A stretch of DNA of 48,551 bases. It comes from a virus. The translations under genes and the position numbers were made by a program. This document shows, piece after piece, positions 3,299 to 41,400 of this stretch. The stretch is taken from the IMG/VR virus record IMGVR_UViG_3300044960_000334, positions 1 to 48,551 of that record; one strand, 5' to 3'. The stretch's first letter is position 1, and every line of letters begins with the position of its first letter. Below the pieces are notes generated by a model, which saw only the letters and a list, made by a program, of their open reading frames with translations, made no database searches and had not been told where the DNA came from.

Positions 3299-3328
3299 CT
3301 TGATGTGTTATATTGGTTTTGAGAAAAC

Positions 3329-3348
3329 GAGGAAGACGGTTTCCTCGC
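3329..3348 (+). terminator. Short hairpin between the ATPase and SSB genes
   Basis: CGAGGAA and TTCCTCG form a 7-bp perfect stem with a 6-base loop in the 99-base gap after the AAA_24 gene. The following T tract is weak (CATTTCTT), so it could be a partial terminator or an mRNA-stability hairpin. Confidence 0.4.
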
Positions 3349-3397
3349 ATTTCTTAGATTAAAAAAAAAAAACTAAAAACGGAGAGACAAAAATTAA

Positions 3398-4045
3398 ATG
3401 TTTGCAAAAGCAAGTGTTAGAAAGAAACCCACGGTAGCATGTATTGGATACGTTTCCGACATTGGTGAAGCCAAACCGACTCGTGTAAATGAATACGGAT
3501 TCAATTACATCATGATTCCTATTCAGTTGGCGGGCTACGGGGCCTCTTTGCCGATTAAAGTTAATTTCATGTTCCGTCCCGAGTGGCTTCAGCCCGGTTT
3601 TGATCCGGAGAGTCTCCACGAGCTGGAACACGGATCAACTCTATACTCTCAGTACTCCCGACACATTAATCAGGCCGGCGGGGGCATTTCCACACTGTTC
3701 GGTCTGGTTGGGGCCGATGACGAGAAATTTAATCAACTCGCTGAGGCCTTACAGGAAGTGGCACCTGAGGCGGAGTCTGATCCGGAAATCGTTGCTAATG
3801 TTCTTCGGGAAAAACTGGTTGACGAGGAACTCGGAAAACTGGTTGGATACGTTCTCTCACAGCAAAAGGAGAAGTCCGTCGATCCCGAAACGGGAAAGGT
3901 GACCTATCTCCTGACTCCCTACTACCAAGTCGATTCCTTTTTTGTCCCGGATGAAAAGGGCCGCGCCCGACAAATTCGCCGGGCCGAAAAGACAACTGAT
4001 GGATCTTTTCGGGTTTACTTTGCGGAAGAAGATGTTCCGTTTTAG
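3398..4045 (+). CDS. ssb: Single-stranded DNA-binding protein-like
   Basis: A 215-residue protein that ends in EEDVPF, the acidic tip with terminal Pro-Phe used by bacterial and phage SSBs to recruit partner enzymes. Several beta-rich stretches (PTVACIGYVSDIG, NYIMIPIQLAGYG, LPIKVNFMF) at residues 10-65 fit an OB-fold, with a helical insertion at about 110-145 and a final strand (RVYFAE) before the tail. It lies directly after the Sak4-like ATPase and before uracil-DNA glycosylase and DNA polymerase. The core sequence is not a close match to E. coli SSB, so the call rests on the tail, fold pattern and context. The ribosome binding site is CGGAGAGAC, a sequence that also appears at 34.7 kb. 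Confidence 0.65.
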   Translation: MFAKASVRKKPTVACIGYVSDIGEAKPTRVNEYGFNYIMIPIQLAGYGASLPIKVNFMFRPEWLQPGFDPESLHELEHGSTLYSQYSRHINQAGGGISTLFGLVGADDEKFNQLAEALQEVAPEAESDPEIVANVLREKLVDEELGKLVGYVLSQQKEKSVDPETGKVTYLLTPYYQVDSFFVPDEKGRARQIRRAEKTTDGSFRVYFAEEDVPF

Positions 4046-8850: not shown

Positions 8851-9732
8851 ATGAGCCTCTCAGTTCATCAGCGTGGGCGGCTCGTTGATCTTATTTCAGC
8901 AGAACTACCTGAAATACCGACTTGGGTATCAGGGGGGTTGTTGCCAAAAAATTCAAAATTACTTTTTGGAGGCCCGGCTAAAAGTGGTAAGAGTTTTATT
9001 ATGCTCTCCCTTGGTCGGGCCTTGGTTTTAGGTGAAAATCCCTTCGAATGTCCAAATTTTCAGACACTTAGACCAACGCGGGTTCTGCTGCTAGATCAAG
9101 AGCTAAAACCCTTTGGGTTGCAAAAGCGGGTCAGGCCGCTTTTTCAGGACGTGGATCTAAAGAAAATAGAGGACCTGTTTTTCTATGAATCCGGAAATGT
9201 GGACTTGAATTTTTCCACATACTCAGGTCGAAAGGAAATTGAAGCCCTCGTGAGGGACGTAAAACCAGAAGTTTTGCTTTTAGATCCAATTGGTAAAATG
9301 CACTCTTTTGATGAAAACTCGAATTCGGAAATTAATCGATTGTTTACGTACTTAGATCATATTATTAAAATCGGCTTCGACTGGGGGCTTTCAATTGTTT
9401 TGTCGCACCATTTCGGGAAGCCCCCGCGCGCGGACGGAAAGGCCTTGGAGGCCTATGATCCACTCGATATTAATAATTTCCGGGGCGCGACGAAGTTTAA
9501 GGACGACCCGGACGCAATTATGTGTGTTCATCGAATGAAGAACCTTCCAACACCACACCAGGCCTGGAAAATGAAGACTCGATTTATTTTTAGGCATGCC
9601 GAGGAGCCAGAGGATATGGTTTTTACTGTTAATGAGTTCGGGGACGGTCGTGTCCGGTTTAAACATCATGAATGTCAACCGATAACACTAAACCCCGTCC
9701 TGCCTCCGCCTCTGAGTTTTAAGCCGGCATGA
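8851..9732 (+). CDS. RepA-like RecA-fold ATPase (AAA_25), probable helicase
   Basis: A 293-residue ATPase with Walker A GPAKSGKS (41-48), a Glu-containing strand VLLLDQELKP (78-87), Walker B VLLLDPIGKMH (141-151) and a sensor-like LSHHFGKPPR (about 188). This pattern is that of the RepA/AAA_25 hexameric helicase group used by plasmids and phages. Since no other replicative helicase (DnaB or SF1/SF2) is visible, it is the best candidate to unwind DNA for the family A polymerase. A late substitution of basic residues (KFKDDPDAIMCVHRMK) fits the DNA-facing side. The C-terminus is Pro-rich. Helicase activity is inferred. Confidence 0.8.
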   Translation: MSLSVHQRGRLVDLISAELPEIPTWVSGGLLPKNSKLLFGGPAKSGKSFIMLSLGRALVLGENPFECPNFQTLRPTRVLLLDQELKPFGLQKRVRPLFQDVDLKKIEDLFFYESGNVDLNFSTYSGRKEIEALVRDVKPEVLLLDPIGKMHSFDENSNSEINRLFTYLDHIIKIGFDWGLSIVLSHHFGKPPRADGKALEAYDPLDINNFRGATKFKDDPDAIMCVHRMKNLPTPHQAWKMKTRFIFRHAEEPEDMVFTVNEFGDGRVRFKHHECQPITLNPVLPPPLSFKPA

Positions 9733-10243: not shown

Positions 10244-12098
10244 TAGGTTCGGACCTTGGGGCAAGCGGAACCCCCGGTTCGTAAAGCCTAACCTCAGTCT
10301 CCTGTGGTCCCGCGATTTCTCGAAAGCGCCGGGATTCTTCACCGGGTCCGAAGAATATGTTTAGTGACTGACCTAGTGGACGAGTTAAGTCTATTTTTCT
10401 TGCCCCCAGCCGATTGGCAGTGCGGTCAAGAAAATTAACTAAAAACCGAACTCCCTGTCCCGCGGATAGCGGATTGTCTAGTAGTTTTCTTGCATAAGCC
10501 GCACTATCGGCCCAGTCGTCTGCATGGCGTCCAAGCACGAGATTTGCGAGTTGTTCTGTATCCAGAATGACCAATAAATTCTTTGCCCGGACCCACACAC
10601 CGGCTCCTGGAACCACACCGCCGGCCCACTCCGGATGTTGAACGTTTACTAGATCAGAGAGGCCACGCACTAAGGCTTTTAAATTTTTAGATCCTTCCGG
10701 GCCGAATAATTCATTGAAGATATTAACCTGACGCTCCGAAAGGACATTATAAATTCGCTCAACACCCTTCGTTGCTGGGCCAAATTCGCCACCTCCGAAT
10801 CGGTTAATTACAAAATCTAAAACCCCGCTTCGTAAGGCCTTTCTTTCCTCGGGGCGGTCGAATAATTTAATGACATCCATGAACCTTTGTGCCCGCCGGC
10901 GTATAATTCCGGTTTTCTGGGCTTCCGGTGTTTCTCCGAGATGAAATAGATCATCTAGTTCATCCTGAATAAAAGTCCGGGGATCTTCTTTTACGCGTTT
11001 AAATATTTCTTTTTGTTTTCTCGGTAAGTCTTCCAAGGACTCAATGCCGTATTCTTGCGCTTTTGTTGTAAGTTTTTTCTTTTCTTTTTCCGCCTCCTCG
11101 ATGGCCTCGTAGACCTTACGGTATTTACCGAGCATCTTGTTGCGATAGGTGTGATAAATACTGCCGGCAGTATCGAGATCGCCTTGTCGGAGTGCGTCTA
11201 TAAACTGAAATTGAAAGTCCGCGACAGGACTTTTTTCGTCAAAAGAACCAAGGAATTCTTTTATTTCTTTCATCAATTCCTTGTCCTGTGCCTTAAATTG
11301 TTCCCGAAAAGAGAGAATGTCTTCTGCGCGGGGTTTAAGCGCACTGGCATCAAAGCCCCGATCCTTGAATTTTTCCAGGGACCGCTCCACTCGGATAGGT
11401 GCAGAGCGAGCAATGCCTCGTTGAGCGCGTCCAGCCCAATATGCCGGTCCGCCCAATAATGCCCCGCGAATGATGGCGGGGGTTAAGTTTAGTTCTTCGT
11501 CCTCCTCAGCGGGGCGACCTAACAACTGCCCGCCGATATCGGAAACGAGACCCTCCGTGAATCCGGTAGTTCCGGGGTGCCGCATCATCAGACCGAAGCC
11601 GCGTCTGATTATTTCTGGAGTCTGAGCCGCCTCCGCCAAGGGCCGGGCTCCAATACGCAATAGATTAGCCGCGGCGCCAAGGCCTTGCGTTACGGACTCC
11701 CGTCCTCCGAATTCCGGGGGAGAAAAAATATCTGATGCCACCGAGGCCCCGAGAATACCTCGTGCCAATTTTCCACCAAGTCCAATTTTTCCACCAGGGC
11801 CGGGGGTTAACGCAGAAAGAATGTCTAATGTTATTGCTGGAATTCGGTCTTTCCAATAGTCAATAGAAGTAATCGGTGTAACGGCCTCTTTCTGTTGAGC
11901 GATTATTTGTTTTTGTAGTTGCTCTTTTTTTAGCCGACGCTGTTCCTCGGTTTGTTTAATAAGCTCATCAAGGTCTTCGATCTCTCCCGCCTCCAGCGCT
12001 GCCTGGACTTCTGGTAGTTCCCGTGCCTCCAAGTACAGGGCCGTTGGATCGTCGGCCTCAAGCTCAGAGAGTCTTTTTCTAACGTCCTCGATAGGCAT
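10221..12098 (-). CDS. Large virion protein, probable internal/ejection protein
   Basis: A 625-residue protein encoded last in a three-gene minus-strand block after two other large, Ala/Gln/Glu-rich proteins. It has coiled-coil stretches (about 40-70; 320-345), a Gly/Ala-rich, membrane-seeking region (GLGGKLARGILGASVASDIF and neighbours, about 105-165) and a helical C-terminal half. Position after the nozzle gene, size and composition are like the internal virion (ejection) proteins of T7-type podoviruses, which form the DNA channel in the host envelope. There is no detectable enzymatic motif. The assignment is contextual. Confidence 0.6.
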   Translation of the reverse strand: MPIEDVRKRLSELEADDPTALYLEARELPEVQAALEAGEIEDLDELIKQTEEQRRLKKEQLQKQIIAQQKEAVTPITSIDYWKDRIPAITLDILSALTPGPGGKIGLGGKLARGILGASVASDIFSPPEFGGRESVTQGLGAAANLLRIGARPLAEAAQTPEIIRRGFGLMMRHPGTTGFTEGLVSDIGGQLLGRPAEEDEELNLTPAIIRGALLGGPAYWAGRAQRGIARSAPIRVERSLEKFKDRGFDASALKPRAEDILSFREQFKAQDKELMKEIKEFLGSFDEKSPVADFQFQFIDALRQGDLDTAGSIYHTYRNKMLGKYRKVYEAIEEAEKEKKKLTTKAQEYGIESLEDLPRKQKEIFKRVKEDPRTFIQDELDDLFHLGETPEAQKTGIIRRRAQRFMDVIKLFDRPEERKALRSGVLDFVINRFGGGEFGPATKGVERIYNVLSERQVNIFNELFGPEGSKNLKALVRGLSDLVNVQHPEWAGGVVPGAGVWVRAKNLLVILDTEQLANLVLGRHADDWADSAAYARKLLDNPLSAGQGVRFLVNFLDRTANRLGARKIDLTRPLGQSLNIFFGPGEESRRFREIAGPQETEVRLYEPGVPLAPRSEPTSTQNQQ

Positions 12099-13879
12099 TA
12101 TAGTTTTCCTCGTTTATAGCGGTTGATTTCCGGCTCAAAGATTAAAGACATGTTAAACCGATTTTCTTTTGGCGGGTTGCCGGATAAGAATTGTTTGGTT
12201 AGGTACTTGGTATAATTGAGTAGTTTCTTGTCTACCTCGTCTTCACGTTCTAGGAGTTTAGTTCGAAATTCGGGGTGAAGTTTATAATCAGTGAAGTATT
12301 TATATTCTGTGTACAGGCGGGTCATGAAGACCTTAGAGATGAGTTCTTCTAGTGAGTCAGTCGGGTTCGCCGATGCCATTGCTGTCCAGCGCCGGTCCTG
12401 TTCGTTAGATTGTTTTCCCGTCGCTCTTAGGAGTTCTTCAATGTAGTTTCGGGAAAGGAATTGATTAAGAATGGCACGGGAGGCATTAACATTATTCCCC
12501 ATGCGTTGTATTTTGACCATCCAGTCACTACCAAGAATAGGACCGAGATAGCGCTTTAATTCCGGGGCTTCTAGAGACATGACTGCGGTAGTCATCATTC
12601 TGTTTTCTCGAAGCGACTTGAGTGCCTCCATTTCTTGTTGTGCCGCTCGAGGCGTGCGGATATTGGCCAGTGGATTCGGGTCCTCGGCAGCGAAGGCGTA
12701 GCGTTTTGGAGCCTCTTTAATGGTTATTTTTCCTAGGGGTGTTGGAATGGCGGTCTTGGGTTTTTCAAACTTGTCCGGAACCTTTGTGGCCGGTTGAAGT
12801 TCTGGGTCTTTAGGATCAGTTCCAAGTCGCGGACCAAGAACCTTTTCAGGTGGCGGTTCGGGGACCGCCGGGGCTCTGGTTTCCGCGGTGCGGGGAATAC
12901 CAAGGAACTCCATGAAAGACTGCTGTAACGGACTTGGAATTTCTGCGGTTCGGGATTCCGGTGCTTCTAGCGGGCGACTGATTGTCGTGATGGGTACGGC
13001 CCGCATTGTAACGCGACCCGAGACGGGATCATGGTCAGGAATCAGCCTTATTGTCGTAGTTCTTCGACCCTGCGGGCCGACTCCCGTCTGGCGTGGTTCT
13101 AGTGCCCGAAACAAGGCCGGGGCTTGTCGGGTTAGCCAATAGCGTGTGTGTTCCTTGGCAAACTCCGGATCCTCCAGGCGTGCCTGAGTCGCTACCACTT
13201 CACCTGGGGCTGTTCCGGGGCGGTATCCGTGGGTTTCCAGAAAGTCCGCCTCCAGTTGCTTTAGGGCCGTTTCCGCCCCCGCCCGCCTAGCCACGGCGCG
13301 GTATTGATCCGCGCGGGCTTCCAGGAGTTGGCGTTGTTCTGGGGTCATTTTGGCCGCATAATTAAGCAAGGCCCGATCAAAGGCGGCCTCTTGTCGCATG
13401 GACTCGATTTCTCGCTTTGCCTCGGATCGAATTTCTTCGGCTTCGGCCCGCTGAATGTGTGGGGCCTGGGCTTTGTAGATGTCCAAAACTTCTTCTCGGA
13501 TCCGCCCCCGCTTACCGCCGCGGGCGCGGTATTCGGGGCTAAAAAGATTCTCCAGTAATTCAATCGCCCACCTGGAGCCGCGCGTAAACTTACCCCGCCC
13601 GACACCCATTTCCTCTTGATAACGCCGGGCTATTTCTTTTTCTAGGTCCTGAAGAAGATACTCCTGTGCCCGACGCCCTGGTTCTCGCTGGCCCAATGGG
13701 TCCGATGCCGCACGGGCTGCCGCACGCCGGCGGGCCTCAATTGCCTCCACTCCGAGACCGCGTCGAATTAGTTCGTCTACCGAAAGACGTTCTTCGCCGA
13801 CGGGAATTTGCTCATCCCAAGAGCGGGCATTTTCTAGGCCGGAACGAATGTTTTGAAGTAATGTTTGTAGTAAGGCCAT
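12098..13879 (-). CDS. Large charged virion protein, probable internal/ejection protein
   Basis: A 593-residue, very Arg/Glu-rich, mostly helical protein with a Pro-rich middle (VPEPPPEKVLGPRLG, about 335-375). The start ATG at 13879 overlaps the stop of the preceding gene by one base (TAATG), so I prefer it to an upstream start inside that gene. It also overlaps the next gene at 12098. The trio resembles the set of internal virion proteins of short-tailed phages. I see no lytic transglycosylase motif. The function is inferred from order and composition. Confidence 0.55.
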   Translation of the reverse strand: MALLQTLLQNIRSGLENARSWDEQIPVGEERLSVDELIRRGLGVEAIEARRRAAARAASDPLGQREPGRRAQEYLLQDLEKEIARRYQEEMGVGRGKFTRGSRWAIELLENLFSPEYRARGGKRGRIREEVLDIYKAQAPHIQRAEAEEIRSEAKREIESMRQEAAFDRALLNYAAKMTPEQRQLLEARADQYRAVARRAGAETALKQLEADFLETHGYRPGTAPGEVVATQARLEDPEFAKEHTRYWLTRQAPALFRALEPRQTGVGPQGRRTTTIRLIPDHDPVSGRVTMRAVPITTISRPLEAPESRTAEIPSPLQQSFMEFLGIPRTAETRAPAVPEPPPEKVLGPRLGTDPKDPELQPATKVPDKFEKPKTAIPTPLGKITIKEAPKRYAFAAEDPNPLANIRTPRAAQQEMEALKSLRENRMMTTAVMSLEAPELKRYLGPILGSDWMVKIQRMGNNVNASRAILNQFLSRNYIEELLRATGKQSNEQDRRWTAMASANPTDSLEELISKVFMTRLYTEYKYFTDYKLHPEFRTKLLEREDEVDKKLLNYTKYLTKQFLSGNPPKENRFNMSLIFEPEINRYKRGKL

Positions 13880-15432
13880 TATTTTTTGTCCCCAATAGCC
13901 GAACCGACAGCCCCCCACTGACTACCTGGGGCGCGATTTGGGTCAATACCAGAGAACGGGGCAGCAATATTCTGCGCCCACGTGCGGGTGAAGTCCATTG
14001 CCTGACCGCCCAATTGACCCAAAGATCCCATGCCGGTTTGCCAAACGTTACCGACACGCCCGTAGGCATCCATTAGGTTTTGATAGGCACGATTTTGAGC
14101 CTCGGCTAAATTGGTGGCCCTCTGAACGCCCAATTGGCCGGCCCCTAACAGGTTGCCGAAGCCGGTACTCAGCATACCAGATTGTTGACCCAACATACGA
14201 TTATACATGTCCCCCAAACCCAAGGCATACTGATTTTGGGATGCCATTGCCTGATTCCAGAGGTTACCGAAGTCTCGCTGGGATTGTAACAAATTCTGCG
14301 CCATTTCCGCCCCCAGACCCATACGAGACAGCTCCGCCTGAAGACCGCCGGTAATTCCAGCATTTAGGTATGCTTGTAGGTTCTGTGTTGCGGCCTGTTG
14401 AATATCGGGAATCATTCCGAAGCCAAGCTGTTCACGACCTAGGGCCGATGCGATGCCCTGTCGCATTAATTCCGCACCAAGTTGTTGCTCTTGCTGCATC
14501 AAGCCTTGTTGTTGGAACATAGCTTGACGCATATTTTCCGCCGCCGCCCGCGCCGCCTGATCGGCGAATTCCGCGGCTAGTAAATTTTGCTGCCCCGCTC
14601 CAACGACCGCACCCGGACCCCCGCCGCGCGCCATAGCACGACGGTATATATCTTCCGCCCGCTGTTGCCAAACGTCCTGGGCCGATTCGCGGGCAAAGGT
14701 TGCGGCCTGATCGGGAGTCATGAGGGCCTCACGGGATAGAAATTCGGCCCCGCGATCTACCATACCGGCGGTTTCTGGCGTATATCCTTGCCAGCTTAGT
14801 ATGTCCCCTGCCGTCCCCGCCGCCGCCGAGAGCAACGGATTATATCCCCCAGTTTGGGTGGCATACCAGGCCGCGTCCTGTAGGCCTTGGGTCAACCACG
14901 TCTGTCCGCGCTGACCAATGAGATTCGGACCCACGTCTCCTAGGGCAAGCTGGGCATTAGAACCCCAGCCGGCCATGTAGGGCTGAAATCTGTCGAATGC
15001 TTCTTGGTATTGTGGAGTCCAACCGCCGCCGGCAAAGCCCTGGGCCGCAATGTTGGCAACCGGAGACATTTGCTGTGCCAGTTGCGGTTGAGCCATGGCC
15101 ATGGCTTCCATTTCAGGTGTGAGGTACAGACCCCCGGCTTGGCGGAACAAGTCTGTCATACCACCGAGCTGTTGTTCCCCGTAACCCAAGTACCACGGGG
15201 CTAGGTCTATTAGTGGACGCCGGAGCGTATCGGTGACATCAAGGGCTGACTCCCGTAGTGGCTCGGCCATCATACCCCAGAGAAATCGGCCCATTTCTTC
15301 GCCAATTTCGGACCGGTTGAGTAAATGCATTAGTGCATTTTGCTGCCATTCGCGGGGATTTTGGCCAATTCCGAAGGCTCCGAAAATTTGAAATAAACCC
15401 CCTAGGGCATTTGCAATAGAAACGGGGTCCAT
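13879..15432 (-). CDS. Gln/Ala/Gly-rich virion protein, probable ejection protein
   Basis: A 517-residue protein rich in Gln, Ala, Gly and Met (AAENMRQAMFQQQGLMQQEQ), with many repeated heptad-like segments and no charged catalytic motifs. The N-terminus (DPVSIANALGGLFQIFGAFG) is a hydrophobic stretch. Such low-complexity helical proteins directly upstream of the two large virion proteins are typical of the DNA-ejectosome set. The gene starts a transcription block, with the shared element TTATAAT-TAAAATAGG at 15451-15466 and AGGAAAGG as ribosome binding site. Confidence 0.6.
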   Translation of the reverse strand: MDPVSIANALGGLFQIFGAFGIGQNPREWQQNALMHLLNRSEIGEEMGRFLWGMMAEPLRESALDVTDTLRRPLIDLAPWYLGYGEQQLGGMTDLFRQAGGLYLTPEMEAMAMAQPQLAQQMSPVANIAAQGFAGGGWTPQYQEAFDRFQPYMAGWGSNAQLALGDVGPNLIGQRGQTWLTQGLQDAAWYATQTGGYNPLLSAAAGTAGDILSWQGYTPETAGMVDRGAEFLSREALMTPDQAATFARESAQDVWQQRAEDIYRRAMARGGGPGAVVGAGQQNLLAAEFADQAARAAAENMRQAMFQQQGLMQQEQQLGAELMRQGIASALGREQLGFGMIPDIQQAATQNLQAYLNAGITGGLQAELSRMGLGAEMAQNLLQSQRDFGNLWNQAMASQNQYALGLGDMYNRMLGQQSGMLSTGFGNLLGAGQLGVQRATNLAEAQNRAYQNLMDAYGRVGNVWQTGMGSLGQLGGQAMDFTRTWAQNIAAPFSGIDPNRAPGSQWGAVGSAIGDKK

Positions 15433-15450
15433 TTTGAGGTTAATTCCTTT

Positions 15451-15466
15451 CCTATTTTAATTATAA
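15451..15466 (-). promoter_or_regulatory. Shared promoter/RBS element before the ejection-protein block
   Basis: Minus-strand TTATAATTAAAATAGG: a -10-like box joined to the ribosome binding site, as before eight other minus-strand blocks. No -35 box is evident. Confidence 0.5.
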
Positions 15467-15476
15467 CAGGGTCTTT

Positions 15477-16793
15477 TTAGCCCGTAACTGAAAGGAAACC
15501 CTGGGTGATTGTTAGAGAATTATCAATGTCCGCCGCTGACCACTCTATGGTTATTTCTAAGTTATTGTTAACCGTTGTGTCAATCGTAACGGGAGATAGC
15601 GTGGTATTTTGCTGTAAGGTTCCGTTAAATGAGGTTTCTAGAAAAGAAACTAAAGTTCCGTTACTTCCCAGCGTGCGAACAGTTAGCGTTGCAGAAATGG
15701 AGATGGGGACATTAGTTACGGCTAGTGTTGGAGAAGAGAGACTTAATATCGTTGTCCCACCATATTTTAGTCGAATTGTGAAGTTATCTGTTGTGTTTGA
15801 AGAATAATGGCCGAATAGTTTTAGGTTAAAAACTGTGCCAATGTTAACACTATTTTCCGGAATTTCCTCTAAAAAAACCGCGGTCTCTGTAATTGTGTTT
15901 GTTACTGAAATATTCGACGTACGGGCGGGGCCGGTTAATGTAAAGTTTTTTCTTTTTCCGGATAAAGTAAAAGATAGTTTTTTTCCGTTAAATTCGGTTA
16001 AACCATTTTCTAAAACAGTAACGTCTGTTTTTTGAGGAAGTTTTAAAGAATGATCTAAGTTAATCGAATCCCCGTCATCAACAATTCCAGCCTCTGTAAT
16101 AAAGCCCGGCGTTGTTCCGACCATTACTAATCGCCCGGCATTAATAAGATTACTTCGACCTTCAGGAATATTTAGCCCCGCCTTAGAGCTAAAGGACGGG
16201 GGACTTCCGGAGCCATTACCGCGCAAAATTGCCTCATTTGCCCCCGTCGGTATTGTTGTTATAATCCCGCTGGAATTCCAGGTTATTAATTCGCCGGCAA
16301 TACCGTTTGCCAGTGCATTTAGTGGAATAGAGCCCACTGGATAATCTTCAGATAGAAACGAACCGGCAAAGGTGGTGCTTGATATCGAGGGCGAGTCTTC
16401 TAGTGAAGACATCATACCAGACAGTAAAACTGTTTGGACTATAAAAACAATAGGCGTTGGTTCTTGTGTTTGAACGCGCAAAATGGCCGGCGAGCGCCGA
16501 GTAGAGTATGGGCCAATAGGTTGTTGGTTTTTAGAAAGAAGACCGATGATGTATACATTAAAGTGAGAAATCCTGTCATTCTGTATATCAACCGGCTCTT
16601 GCCAGGCTATAGAGAACTCAGTGCCCCCGAAGTAGCGCTTTTTCTCTAAAAGTCTTAGGCTATCAACGACAGGAACCCGCCTGCCTCCAATAACCCGCGG
16701 GGGTAGATTAGTTCCGCCGCCTGTGTTGTTTTTATTAATAATTCTCTGTAATGCCTGGTCATCATCTAAACCTCGCCCCCATTTTGTTGCCAT
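15477..16793 (-). CDS. Probable tail fibre or receptor-binding virion protein
   Basis: A 438-residue, Thr/Ser/Asn-rich beta protein. Residues 45-110 look like a small sandwich domain (EFSIAWQEPVDIQN, SHFNVYIIGLLSK), the middle (150-240) has the loose Gly/Asn repeats of fibre shafts (GSIPLNALANGIAGELITW), and the last 140 residues resemble a jelly-roll tip (NFTIRLKYGGTTILSLSSP). It is encoded right after the nozzle gene, with only three bases between stop and start, as expected for an adhesion protein attached to the tail. The receptor is unknown. Confidence 0.6.
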   Translation of the reverse strand: MATKWGRGLDDDQALQRIINKNNTGGGTNLPPRVIGGRRVPVVDSLRLLEKKRYFGGTEFSIAWQEPVDIQNDRISHFNVYIIGLLSKNQQPIGPYSTRRSPAILRVQTQEPTPIVFIVQTVLLSGMMSSLEDSPSISSTTFAGSFLSEDYPVGSIPLNALANGIAGELITWNSSGIITTIPTGANEAILRGNGSGSPPSFSSKAGLNIPEGRSNLINAGRLVMVGTTPGFITEAGIVDDGDSINLDHSLKLPQKTDVTVLENGLTEFNGKKLSFTLSGKRKNFTLTGPARTSNISVTNTITETAVFLEEIPENSVNIGTVFNLKLFGHYSSNTTDNFTIRLKYGGTTILSLSSPTLAVTNVPISISATLTVRTLGSNGTLVSFLETSFNGTLQQNTTLSPVTIDTTVNNNLEITIEWSAADIDNSLTITQGFLSVTG

Positions 16794-35279: not shown

Positions 35280-35537
35280 ATGATCAAGAGAAAAAAATTA
35301 ACCGATTCCGATAAAAAGGGAATTATTTTTGCTTATAACGACGGAATGAGTCTCGGGGCTATCGCCGCACTATACGGAATCTCTAAGACTCATACCTGGA
35401 GAATAGTAAAAAAAAATCAAGACCCTCAAAGTGCTACGTCGCTTCGCTCCGAGCACTTGTCCCCACAAGCCAGAATGACTGACCGCCGGTTTGCGGTGTG
35501 GTTAAGAAAACTAATTAACGCCGCCGACGAACACTAG
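35280..35537 (+). CDS. Small helix-turn-helix protein on the opposite strand
   Basis: An 85-residue protein with a resolvase/homeodomain-like HTH: KLTDSDKKGIIFAYNDG, then SLGAIAALYGISKTHTWRIV (about 24-43), the form of a DNA-binding regulator. It is the only plus-strand gene among the minus-strand virion genes and is divergent from the one at 34762, so it could regulate the virion promoters. The codons after the HTH include a perfect AAGTGCT/AGCACTT inverted repeat, perhaps an insertion that changed the C-terminus. Its end overlaps the convergent gene by 23 bases. Confidence 0.55.
   Translation: MIKRKKLTDSDKKGIIFAYNDGMSLGAIAALYGISKTHTWRIVKKNQDPQSATSLRSEHLSPQARMTDRRFAVWLRKLINAADEH
35429..35458. 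repeat. Inverted repeat inside the HTH gene
   Basis: AAGTGCT (35429-35435) and AGCACTT (35452-35458) flank the sequence ACGTCGCTTCGCTCCG. The short GC-rich palindromic unit is unlike the surrounding AT-rich coding sequence and resembles small bacterial palindromic repeats. Confidence 0.6.
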
Positions 35538-35930: not shown

Positions 35931-35957
35931 CCTGCAACTACTTCCATTTTACCCCAA
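35931..35957 (-). promoter_or_regulatory. Shared promoter-like element at the start of the minus arm
   Basis: Minus-strand GGGTAAAATGGAAGTAG followed by TTGCAGGAAAGG: a weaker match to the shared box. Confidence 0.4.
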
Positions 35958-36073
35958 CCGAAGACTCATTTCCCCAAAACACGCCCGGAACCTTCTTTTT
36001 ACAACACCACAACCCATCCCCGCCCCCAAAAATCCCAAAATTCTCCACAAAATCCCAATTCTCAAAAGAAACC

Positions 36074-36110
36074 CCGAAACACCTAGTGCTTGCGCACTAG
36101 CCTTTTTCGG
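36074..36110. repeat. Long hairpin at the left end of the iteron region
   Basis: CTAGTGC (36083-36089) and GCACTAG (36094-36100) form a 7-bp stem around TTGC, and CCGAAA (36074-36079) with TTTCGG (36105-36110) extends it. A T5 run follows the inner stem, so it could also stop plus-strand transcription. Confidence 0.65.
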
Positions 36111-36112
36111 TG

Positions 36113-36258
36113 GTACTAGTACCAAAGTACTAGGGGTACTAGTACCCCGGTACTAGTACTCCGGAACCTTCGGTACTAGTACTGAAGTACTAGTACTTTG
36201 GTACTAAGGTGTTTGGGAAGAAAATTTTTTTCTGGGGGTACTAGTACTTTGGTACTAG
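36113..36258. repeat. Cluster of GTACTAGTAC palindromic iterons
   Basis: Six perfect copies of the 10-bp palindrome GTACTAGTAC start at 36113, 36136, 36150, 36173, 36187 and 36238; half copies (GTACTA) lie between them at 36127, 36201 and 36252. A seventh full copy is at 36547. Start-to-start spacings are 23, 14, 23, 14 and 51. The last two units share a 29-base direct repeat with one mismatch (36187-36215 and 36238-36266). Likely binding sites for an initiator or regulator. Confidence 0.85.
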
Positions 36259-36480
36259 GGTGTTTGCCTGAGTACTAGGACTCAGTAGGAGGGAGTACCA
36301 GAATAGGAAGTGGTTTGTTTTCAGCAAGTTACGCGGGAAAGTTCAAGTGAATTCTCGGGAAGTTTTTTCCGGAGTGGTTTTCGGGCCTAGGGCGCGAGGT
36401 TTAGAATTTTGGGTACTAAGGGTACTATGGGCGGTTTGTTTTAGTACTGGAGTACTAGGACTTGGGGTGTGTGTGTTTGT

Positions 36481-36683
36481 TTTAATGAACGCAGTTTTAC
36501 TTGAGGTTTGTGGTGGTAAGTTGTTGATTTTAAAGGGCGATTTTTGGTACTAGTACGACGCATGGTACGTTAATGGGTTAATGTTTGGGGGAATTAAGTG
36601 GAGAATTGGGTTAATGAAGGAAGTTTTAGGTGAGGTTTGGGTGTGTAAGTTATTGAGAATGTTGGAGTGATTTTGGGTGCTAG
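36481..36683 (+). repeat. Degenerate GT-rich direct repeats, period about 130
   Basis: The block beginning TTAATGAACGCAGTTTTA at 36481 and the block beginning TTAATGAAGGAAGTTTTA at 36611 align over about 70 bases (shared TGAGGTTTG, GTAAGTT, TTGA, GATTTT, GGT(A/G)CTAG). A third, weaker copy lies around 36708-36780. Confidence 0.5.
36547..36556. repeat. Seventh GTACTAGTAC copy
   Basis: An isolated perfect copy of the palindrome 309 bases from the previous one. Confidence 0.75.
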
Positions 36684-36871
36684 AGAATTAATGGGACTTT
36701 GTGGGTTTAATTTAGGTGTGTTTAATTGCTCGTGAAACTTTGGGTGTGTGGTTTTTGTAGGTTGTAAGTTGTTGTTTGGTAAGGACTTGATGCCAATGTG
36801 AGACTTAGCTATTTCGGATATTAGGGTCTTAATCGGTTTTTGTCTTATATATCAGGGATATGCTAGCAGGA

Positions 36872-36915
36872 TGTTGTGACTATGTTGTGACTATATTGTG
36901 ACTATGTTGTGACTA
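36872..36915. repeat. Four tandem 11-bp repeats (TGTTGTGACTA)
   Basis: Units at 36872, 36883, 36894 and 36905; the third differs at one base (TATTGTGACTA). The 11-base period equals about one helical turn, so a protein could bind all copies on the same DNA face. They lie next to an AT-rich patch and 20 bases before the parS-like site. Confidence 0.85.
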
Positions 36916-36935
36916 TATTACGAGACTTGGAGCAC

Positions 36936-36949
36936 GTTTCACGTGGAAC
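36936..36949. promoter_or_regulatory. parS-like partition site
   Basis: GTTTCACGTGGAAC matches the central 14 bases of the bacterial parS site recognised by ParB (TGTTNCACGTGNAACA); only the two outermost bases differ (C and G). No ParB or ParA gene is visible in this window, so it might be read by the host ParB. Confidence 0.55.
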
Positions 36950-37042
36950 GTTGGGTTAATTAGGGTTAAGCGGTGTTAAGTGTGGTTAAGTGGGGAACTA
37001 TTATTGAGCGGTAGATTAAGGAACTTTAATTTGACTTGGGGC

Positions 37043-37071
37043 TTGACAGGAGAATTGATGTGTTCTATCCT
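37043..37071 (+). promoter_or_regulatory. Possible promoter at the start of the accessory arm
   Basis: TTGACA at 37043-37048 followed after 17 bases by TATCCT at 37066-37071. It overlaps the ribosome binding site and start of the gene at 37060, so either it is fortuitous or the mRNA would begin at the in-frame ATG at 37078. Confidence 0.35.
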
Positions 37072-37425
37072 TTAGGTATGAACAATTCCACATACTCGCT
37101 TCGCTTCTCATTTTTTGTCGGTACTGAGTTCGACCAATATAAACAGCCGATTGACCCACAGCGAGCTTCTTTCGCGCTTCAGCAAGCGCGAGAGAAATTG
37201 ATTTACTACTTCGGTGGTTTCACCGAAGTACAGACCAAGGGCGGATATCTTCTCAGTGACGGTTCGACCGCCATTGAGGAAGGCGTGTGTTTCATCGTCG
37301 TTTGTGATGACGATGAGGCAAAACGGACGTTCGCGCACCAATTGGCGCGTGAGTTTGCCGGAGCGCTTGAGCAGGAAAGCGTTCTTTTGACTGAAGAACG
37401 CGTTCTTGCACATTTCGTTTCCTGA
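37060..37425 (+). CDS. Small conserved-looking protein of unknown function
   Basis: A 121-residue alpha/beta protein (SLRFSFFVGTEFDQYKQPID; FTEVQTKGGYLLSDGSTAIEE; VCFIVVCDDDEAKRTFAHQL; ALEQESVLLTEERVLAHFV). The order of strands and the final QESVL are like DUF3574-type proteins, but this is a distant likeness. GTG 37060 has AGGAG 7 bases upstream; ATG 37078 is an alternative. Base composition (many GCGC) differs from the virion genes. It begins a short operon that ends at a strong terminator. Confidence 0.55.
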   Translation: MFYPLGMNNSTYSLRFSFFVGTEFDQYKQPIDPQRASFALQQAREKLIYYFGGFTEVQTKGGYLLSDGSTAIEEGVCFIVVCDDDEAKRTFAHQLAREFAGALEQESVLLTEERVLAHFVS

Positions 37426-38397: not shown

Positions 38398-38592
38398 ATG
38401 ACACTGCGTTATAAAAAAATTCCAGTGAACCGATACGACAGCACTGATTTCCAGGAAGTACTAGTTTACTTACCCAGTACCGCGGTATATGAGATACCGC
38501 GATCCGACACAGACTGCCCAGAGCGACAGAAGTTCATTGAAACTATGGTTAAAAGGATTAGAGAAAGAAAGAAGGAAAGTATTGATATTTGA
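38398..38592 (+). CDS. Small hypothetical protein
   Basis: A 64-residue charged protein (KIPVNRYDSTDFQEVLVYLP; KFIETMVKRIRERKKES), a strand-strand-helix layout. ATG 38398 has GAGGAAG upstream and is preferred to a longer frame that would overlap the previous gene. Its 3' end contains the AAGGAAAG ribosome binding site of the next gene, so the two are coupled. Confidence 0.5.
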   Translation: MTLRYKKIPVNRYDSTDFQEVLVYLPSTAVYEIPRSDTDCPERQKFIETMVKRIRERKKESIDI

Positions 38593-38887
38593 AGACAAGA
38601 CTCCAAAAGTACCGCGCCATCCTAGGCGCGGCAAGTACAAAGACGAAAAAATCACGAACGTCCGCGGAACGTGCGGAACGTGGGTTGAGTCAATCAAATT
38701 TTTGTTCAGCCCCAAAAACCTGAGGCGCTATGCTCGGGTTTGGGTTCCGGAAAAACAAGAACTGGAAACATTAGAGATTGGGTTCAATTTCTATGTTTAC
38801 CGAAATGGTGTTTTGTACGTAATAAAAAAAGACGAACAAGGGCGGTTTGTCCTTGTAGAGCCCAGCAAGGACGAAGATAGTGAATAG
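38582..38887 (+). CDS. Small protein, paralogue of the one at 41053
   Basis: A 101-residue protein. From residue 30 on it aligns with the product at 41053: GTWVESIKFLFSPKN (here) and GTWIESIKFLLAPQN, then RARVWVPE / YARVWVPE, ETLEIG.. / ETIHLG.., and a C-terminal NGVLYVIKKDEQGRFVLV / NGRVYHITEDENGRFTLV. The start is a TTG 6 bases after AAGGAAAG. The beta-rich fold suggests a small barrel or sandwich. Function unknown; two copies in the accessory arm point to duplication. Confidence 0.6.
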   Translation: MIFEDKTPKVPRHPRRGKYKDEKITNVRGTCGTWVESIKFLFSPKNLRRYARVWVPEKQELETLEIGFNFYVYRNGVLYVIKKDEQGRFVLVEPSKDEDSE

Positions 38888-41052: not shown

Positions 41053-41400
41053 ATGCTACCTCTGGAAGAAATCATCGCCAAGAATAACGACTTAGAAGTA
41101 ATGAAACCCCCCGTCGCGGGCAACGAAGTGCCCCGGAGTGCCTACTTTCGGGGAGAAAAAATCAAGAACTACATTGGGGCTGGCGGAACATGGATCGAGT
41201 CGATCAAGTTCCTGTTAGCCCCGCAGAATCCGGAACGGCGGGCGCGAGTGTGGGTTCCGGAAACAGGGCAACTCGAAACGATTCACCTAGGACTAACGAA
41301 GTACGTTCAAAGAAACGGGCGGGTTTATCATATCACTGAGGATGAAAACGGACGTTTTACCCTCGTTCCCGTCCCCGTAGATGTTATCGACGAAGTTTAG
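41053..41400 (+). CDS. Small protein, paralogue of the one at 38582
   Basis: A 115-residue protein. Its first 40 residues (EEIIAKNNDLEVMKPPVAG) are unique; from residue 45 on it aligns with the product at 38582 (GTWIESIKFLLAPQNPERR, ARVWVPETGQLETIHL, RNGRVYHITEDENGRF). It has a strong AAAGGAACAAGAC leader like several genes of this arm. Function unknown. Confidence 0.65.
   Translation: MLPLEEIIAKNNDLEVMKPPVAGNEVPRSAYFRGEKIKNYIGAGGTWIESIKFLLAPQNPERRARVWVPETGQLETIHLGLTKYVQRNGRVYHITEDENGRFTLVPVPVDVIDEV

Follow-up and report, generated by a model that had tools for sequence, protein, structure and literature searches.

Repeats and composition of the locus

The window, by which we mean the whole stretch of DNA analyzed, is a linear IMG/VR record of 48551 bp from an uncultured phage (G000). 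Its leftward late arm and its rightward arm diverge at the longest stretch without genes, some 1.1 kb (~35948-37078), and this stretch contains an array of palindromes, which bears out what a preliminary description of the sequence had placed there between opposed gene arms. The seven perfect copies of GTACTAGTAC (36113, 36136, 36150, 36173, 36187, 36238 and 36547) and their start-to-start spacings (23, 14, 23, 14 and 51, then 309) agree with that description, and the 29-base direct repeat with one mismatch that it reported was recovered at 36187-36215 and 36238-36266. Allowing at most one mismatch, 11 sites were found in the window, compared with a mean of 0.50 and a maximum of 3 in shuffled sequences, and GTAC occurs 17 times between 36100 and 36300, where 0.6 copies are expected. 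The GC skew, which the same description had proposed to inspect around 36 kb, flips sign at the array, with -0.67 immediately left of it and values of up to +0.89 on its right. The features of the locus, together with two genes discussed below, are as follows.

8851-9732, plus strand: AAA_25 hexameric-helicase-type protein, kept in the four long relatives
35280-35537, plus strand, antisense to the late arm: small HTH_23-type protein, candidate regulator or binder
36028-36063, minus strand: A/T-rich, G-punctuated tract, possible unwinding element, in the position where the relatives have AAAAATTTT
36083-36458, unstranded: seven CTAGTAC-N4-GTACTAG dyads (at least 12 of 14 arm bases), proposed protein-binding unit
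36083-36100, minus strand: hairpin II, late sense CTAGTGC-GCAA-GCACTAG, about 50 nt from the centre of hairpin I
36113-36247, unstranded: six perfect GTACTAGTAC palindromes within 135 bases
36133-36148, minus strand: hairpin I, or central element, GGGGTACTAGTACCCC, matching GGGGGTAC..ACCCC of the relatives
36163-36171, minus strand: GAAGGTTCC block common by sequence comparison to the window, G009 and G011
36220-36232, plus strand: second A/T tract, GAAAATTTTTTTC, within the array
36260-37040, plus strand: G/T-rich, C-poor (9% C) gene-free stretch, from composition and skew
36547-36556, unstranded: seventh GTACTAGTAC, isolated, from the motif count
36871-36914, plus strand: ATRTTGTGACT 11-bp tandem repeats, four copies with a degenerate fifth (to 36925)
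36935-36950, plus strand: parS-like CGTTTCACGTGGAACG, matching the chromosomal parS core at 14/14 positions

Scans of the region for sigma-70 promoters and terminators gave no excess over shuffles, and GenBank phages, searched with the DNA of the array region, returned no match. We also considered a DnaA box cluster in the window and rejected it, as just two one-mismatch sites were found; the 11-bp ATRTTGTGACT repeats do not form such a cluster either.

An 18-bp dyad as the repeated unit

The pattern is described better by the 18-bp dyad CTAGTAC-N4-GTACTAG than by the 10-mer palindrome. When CTAGTAC and GTACTAG were scanned with gaps of 0 to 11, a gap of 4 was strongly favoured over all others, and eight gap-4 dyads had at least 12 of 14 matches, seven of them between 36083 and 36458 (at 36083, 36116, 36139, 36176, 36190, 36241 and 36441) and one elsewhere. 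The outermost copies, at 36083 and 36441, keep the dyad while the 10-mer palindrome is absent, and at 36083 (CTAGTGC-TTGC-GCACTAG) both arms are altered with the dyad retained. Spacing between dyads is irregular, from 14 to 200 bp. The centres of the two half-sites are separated by 11 bp, or one turn, a geometry that would fit a dimer bound on one face of the helix.

Conservation of the element in related phages

Using large-terminase profiles, we found about 20 contigs, none of them from bacterial genomes; host genomes carrying the GAAGGTTCC..GGGGGTAC..GACCCC core were not found either. The comparison was made with G001, G008, G009 and G011 (62-65 kb), which have the replication and structural genes of the window in common, and with G007, a 20-kb fragment that includes the late arm, all from uncultured phages. 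The preliminary description had staked its reading on related phages carrying the palindromes at the same place and not scattered at random in genes, and it withstands this comparison, the element being present where the late arm begins in all five relatives. At the corresponding place G001 has 20 copies of AGTACTA in 600 bp. Same-sense alignment with the window core gave a score of 79 for G001 (shuffle maximum 35) and of 48 for G009 (shuffle maximum 31), while the alignments of G007, G011 and G008 were not above shuffles. The repeat sequence is different in G008 and nearly lost in G011, and a further phage, G006, has no such array.

Beyond the repeats, the window and the five relatives share a layout, which in the orientation of the late genes runs from the AGTAC-type repeats through hairpins I and II to the A/T tract. 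We anchored the six regions on the central GGGGGTAC..ACCCC element, for which they had been selected. In 5/6 phages the top-scoring downstream hairpin has its centre 49-51 nt away from that of hairpin I, and in G011 the hairpin at about 49 nt is the second-best. The joint hairpin score at one offset was 86.6, compared with a maximum of 62.4 in shuffled sets (0/1000 reached the observed score), and with the window left out the outcome was still 0/300. As the sequences of hairpin II are entirely different among the six phages, it is the structure or the dyad symmetry that is conserved, not the sequence. The A/T tract follows at about +88 to +105 from the central element; it is clear in the five relatives, while in the window it is broken by G and weaker. 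Early-side skew has the same sign in 6/6 phages, weaker in the five relatives than in the window, and late-side skew has the opposite sign in 5/6.

Two hairpins conserved in position, one of which alters its sequence while keeping its pairing, might also act at the RNA level if a transcript runs through the region, as part of a structured RNA or as a terminator, and read in the early sense the window has TTTTT after hairpin II. We consider this very improbable. The relatives have no T-tract after hairpin II, what appear to be the late promoters are found downstream of it, and the AGTAC repeats are dyads that need no RNA. Moreover, an Rfam scan of the region gave no family at gathering score, only weak, chance-like matches.

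Replication proteins and candidate binders

The conserved replication gene set consists of PolA, a helicase, Sak4, an exonuclease and an OB-fold/SSB-like candidate. Among the window proteins that we scanned, none matched a known initiator, whether O-like, DnaD-like or of another kind. The protein encoded at 3398-4045 was considered as an initiator and set aside, since its structure looks, with weak support, OB-fold/SSB-like instead.

The preliminary description had named two candidates for binding the repeats, a RepA-like ATPase and a HTH protein. The former (8851-9732) has a RecA fold and an AAA_25 domain, its profile resembles the T7 gp4 helicase and is weakly and distantly similar to RSF1010 RepA (E 0.0025), and its gene lies 27 kb from the array on the linear map. 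Being a RecA-fold protein of helicase type, it would be the target of a loader rather than an iteron binder, and as a binder it is less well supported. For the HTH protein (35280-35537), probable homologues occur in 5/5 relatives, as found with a profile whose seeds from G007, G009 and G011 were picked by eye (E 7e-5 for G008 and 4e-4 for G001), and it shows PHROG similarity to a late activator; nothing, however, ties it to the dyads.

GTACTAGTAC clusters in unrelated phages

We also looked for GTACTAGTAC clusters in other viral sequences, in a survey that started from this palindrome and was made by eye and partly post hoc. Clusters were present in 69 viral contigs, compared with 8 for the control palindrome AGTCTAGACT of the same composition. 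Most coding clusters were set aside, as they are trivial, arising from Ser/Thr-repeat codons or from repeats in the proteins of structural-type genes. Among the others, 14 lie inside replication-initiator-type genes, at codons ~105-214 and, where an N-terminal DNA-binding domain was identified, after it, as in lambda O. The carriers include a Phage_rep_O gene (L035), replication initiation or O-like genes (L008, L041, L045 and L066) and initiation or DnaD-like genes (L010 and L074), the calls resting on PHROG/Pfam matches of representatives with near-identical members assigned by sequence. Six further clusters adjoin AAA_25 or DnaB-type helicase genes (L028/L050, L031/L037, L034 and L046), where L050 and L031 were included because they are nearly identical to L028 and L037. 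Among the 10 clear AAA_25 records, 5 have a cluster within about 1 kb, where a rough estimate predicts about 0.8 (Poisson p 0.0017). The initiator- and helicase-linked clusters represent about nine lineages in a grouping by eye, which does not amount to a formal test. Among the neighbours tested, none of the 8 control clusters was in or beside a replication-initiator or helicase gene. The literature searched reported no function for GTACTAGTAC in phages.

Two side observations were made in this survey. The AGTCTAGACT clusters (L131-L138) lie mostly near terminase genes and are possible late operators or packaging sites. In L008, L027, L041, L045 and L062, 18-bp GGTACTAGTACCAAAAAC-type repeats occur in replication-initiation genes, where they fall in the linker that follows the HTH domain and resemble the lambda O iterons.

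Operator and packaging readings

A phage regulator, such as the conserved HTH protein, could use the dyads as operators in a transcription-control region that would switch between the early rightward and the late leftward arm. The window array is positioned between opposed arms, the 18-bp dyad would suit a dimeric HTH repressor, the HTH gene lies beside the late arm, and the control clusters beside terminase genes suggest that arrays can be late operators too. The skew and the layout likewise fit a transcription-control region, and this counts against an origin. We nevertheless regard the operator reading as unlikely. In G001 the array is flanked by two early-sense genes, and in G008 a late-sense gene and its terminator precede it, so that in neither is it found between divergent promoters; what the array keeps in both is its proximity to the late arm. 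In addition, the window has no GTAC site ahead of the HTH gene, and elsewhere GTACTAGTAC clusters are in or beside replication genes.

Some pac/cos sites contain repeated motifs, and the late arm with the large terminase starts near the array, which could on these grounds be a packaging site of pac or cos type read by the small terminase subunit. The protein encoded at 579-1073 is possibly such a TerS-like subunit, given a helical, HTH-like structure model of low confidence and conservation in G001 and G008, with no reliable match. This gene, however, is distant from the array, a pac site is not expected to have hairpins or a tract resembling an unwinding element, and the palindrome recurs elsewhere in initiator genes, not in terminase genes. 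Packaging is, in our judgment, quite improbable.

A parS-like site beside the array

A perfect chromosomal-type parS core (GTTTCACGTGGAAC, 36936-36949) lies 0.8 kb from the array. G008 also has one (GTTCCACGTGGAAC, L104 1131-1144), about 190 bp from the central element. By chance, 0.008 perfect cores are expected in the 533 kb of relatives, and none within one mismatch was found in 600 kb of other phage DNA. G001, G009 and G011 have no perfect core, and a parS-like site in G006 was not counted because it lies in a probable small gene.

These sites raise the question of a partition centromere, at which dyads and parS-like site would bind segregation proteins and maintain a plasmid-like prophage. 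The ParB_N domain (PF02195) had no match over the cut-off in the window and relatives, including G000 and G008, there was no ParA match among the proteins scanned, and the palindromes are unlike parS; together with the lack of a core in three relatives, this makes a centromere the least probable of the readings considered, with hardly any weight in our estimate. If real, a parS without a detected parB beside an origin in two phages would point to phages borrowing the chromosome segregation proteins of the host, for which no precedent was found in the open literature searched. The extrachromosomal mycobacteriophages offer a comparison, as Miko (RepA) and RedRock (parABS) have a phage origin region with parS nearby (PMC7157519), which resembles the arrangement proposed for the window. 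They encode ParA/ParB and have a repeat-type parS, whereas the window has a chromosomal-type parS and no ParB was detected.

A candidate replication origin

Considering the hairpins and the A/T tract, and the occurrence in unrelated phages of the same palindrome within initiator genes or next to helicase genes, we favour the reading that the array is the core of a phage replication origin with dyad iterons, working like lambda ori, and we consider it reasonably probable. It is preferred to a simple operator on account of the layout kept in relatives, the two relatives in which the array is off divergent promoters, and the recurrence at initiator and helicase loci. The preliminary description had noted that such iterons bind replication initiators or partition proteins; its first half is the one that we retain, since partition finds no support in the palindromes.

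Initiator binding, melting, hairpin function, helicase loading and origin activity are what we infer for this locus. A dimeric initiator, encoded by the phage or by the host, would bind several CTAGTAC-N4-GTACTAG copies and bend the DNA, after which the A/T tract on the late-gene side would melt. Hairpins I and II may then form in the opened strand, or guide loading there, and the phage AAA_25 helicase and PolA-type polymerase would begin synthesis at that place.

The candidate origin was compared with known systems. Like lambda ori it has a number of nearly symmetric dyads, each a putative site for one dimer, and possibly an adjoining A/T-rich unwinding stretch as well (PMC5043065), and the palindrome of the window is found inside O-like genes of other phages. 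The seven dyads correspond to the multiple initiator-type sites with dyad symmetry of a lambda-type origin. Such an origin lies inside the gene of its O-like initiator, whereas the window array is gene-free, its spacing is irregular and it has two extra conserved hairpins; as no O-like initiator is encoded around the array, we do not class it as a lambda-type origin.

The RSF1010 oriV (RepA/RepC/RepB') combines iterons, hairpins (ssiA/ssiB) and a RepA-type AAA_25 helicase (PMC4234260, PMC8965321), a set that may have its counterpart in the window, where hairpins I and II at their conserved spacing recall the ssi sites. Its iterons are regular direct repeats bound by RepC, whereas the window has irregular dyads, no RepC or RepB' homologue in our scans and a helicase just distantly similar to RepA. 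In the pRN1 and BIP-1 stem-loop origins, stem-loop structure is likewise kept while sequence varies (PMC4234260), and in L028 the palindromes directly follow a Prim-Pol-AAA_25 gene. Unlike these, the window element is away from the helicase gene and its hairpins are short.

The origins of most uncultured phages are unmapped, and this locus, with its palindrome code, two hairpins at fixed spacing and A/T tract, offers a testable candidate in a group of phages that is unclassified and has no isolate. Palindrome clusters could help to locate origins in other phages. A bolder and rather doubtful extension is that GTACTAGTAC-type dyads are a widespread origin code across unrelated initiators, to which these phages would add two hairpins at fixed distance and sometimes a parS that recruits host ParB to newly replicating DNA without a parB gene.

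Promoter-like hexamers and small early proteins

In the window, a -10-like hexamer at 37043-37079, where TTGACA with a 17-bp spacer also occurs, ends about 6-7 nt ahead of a start codon. The same placement was seen at L089 583-597, L091 983-995, L092 ~1790-1801 and L095 ~2220-2229, and suggests leaderless transcripts.

The early-arm proteins encoded at 38489-38887 and 41053-41400 look like paralogues, sharing GTWVESIKFL..P.N..R.ARVWVPE... The early arm of G001 (L087) encodes at least six related small proteins (3306-3662, 11788-12162, 14278-14634, 15212-15607, 15543-15998 and 16011-16364) with the pattern W..ALRSG.Y..K..LK...GYCCLGVLCDLY.
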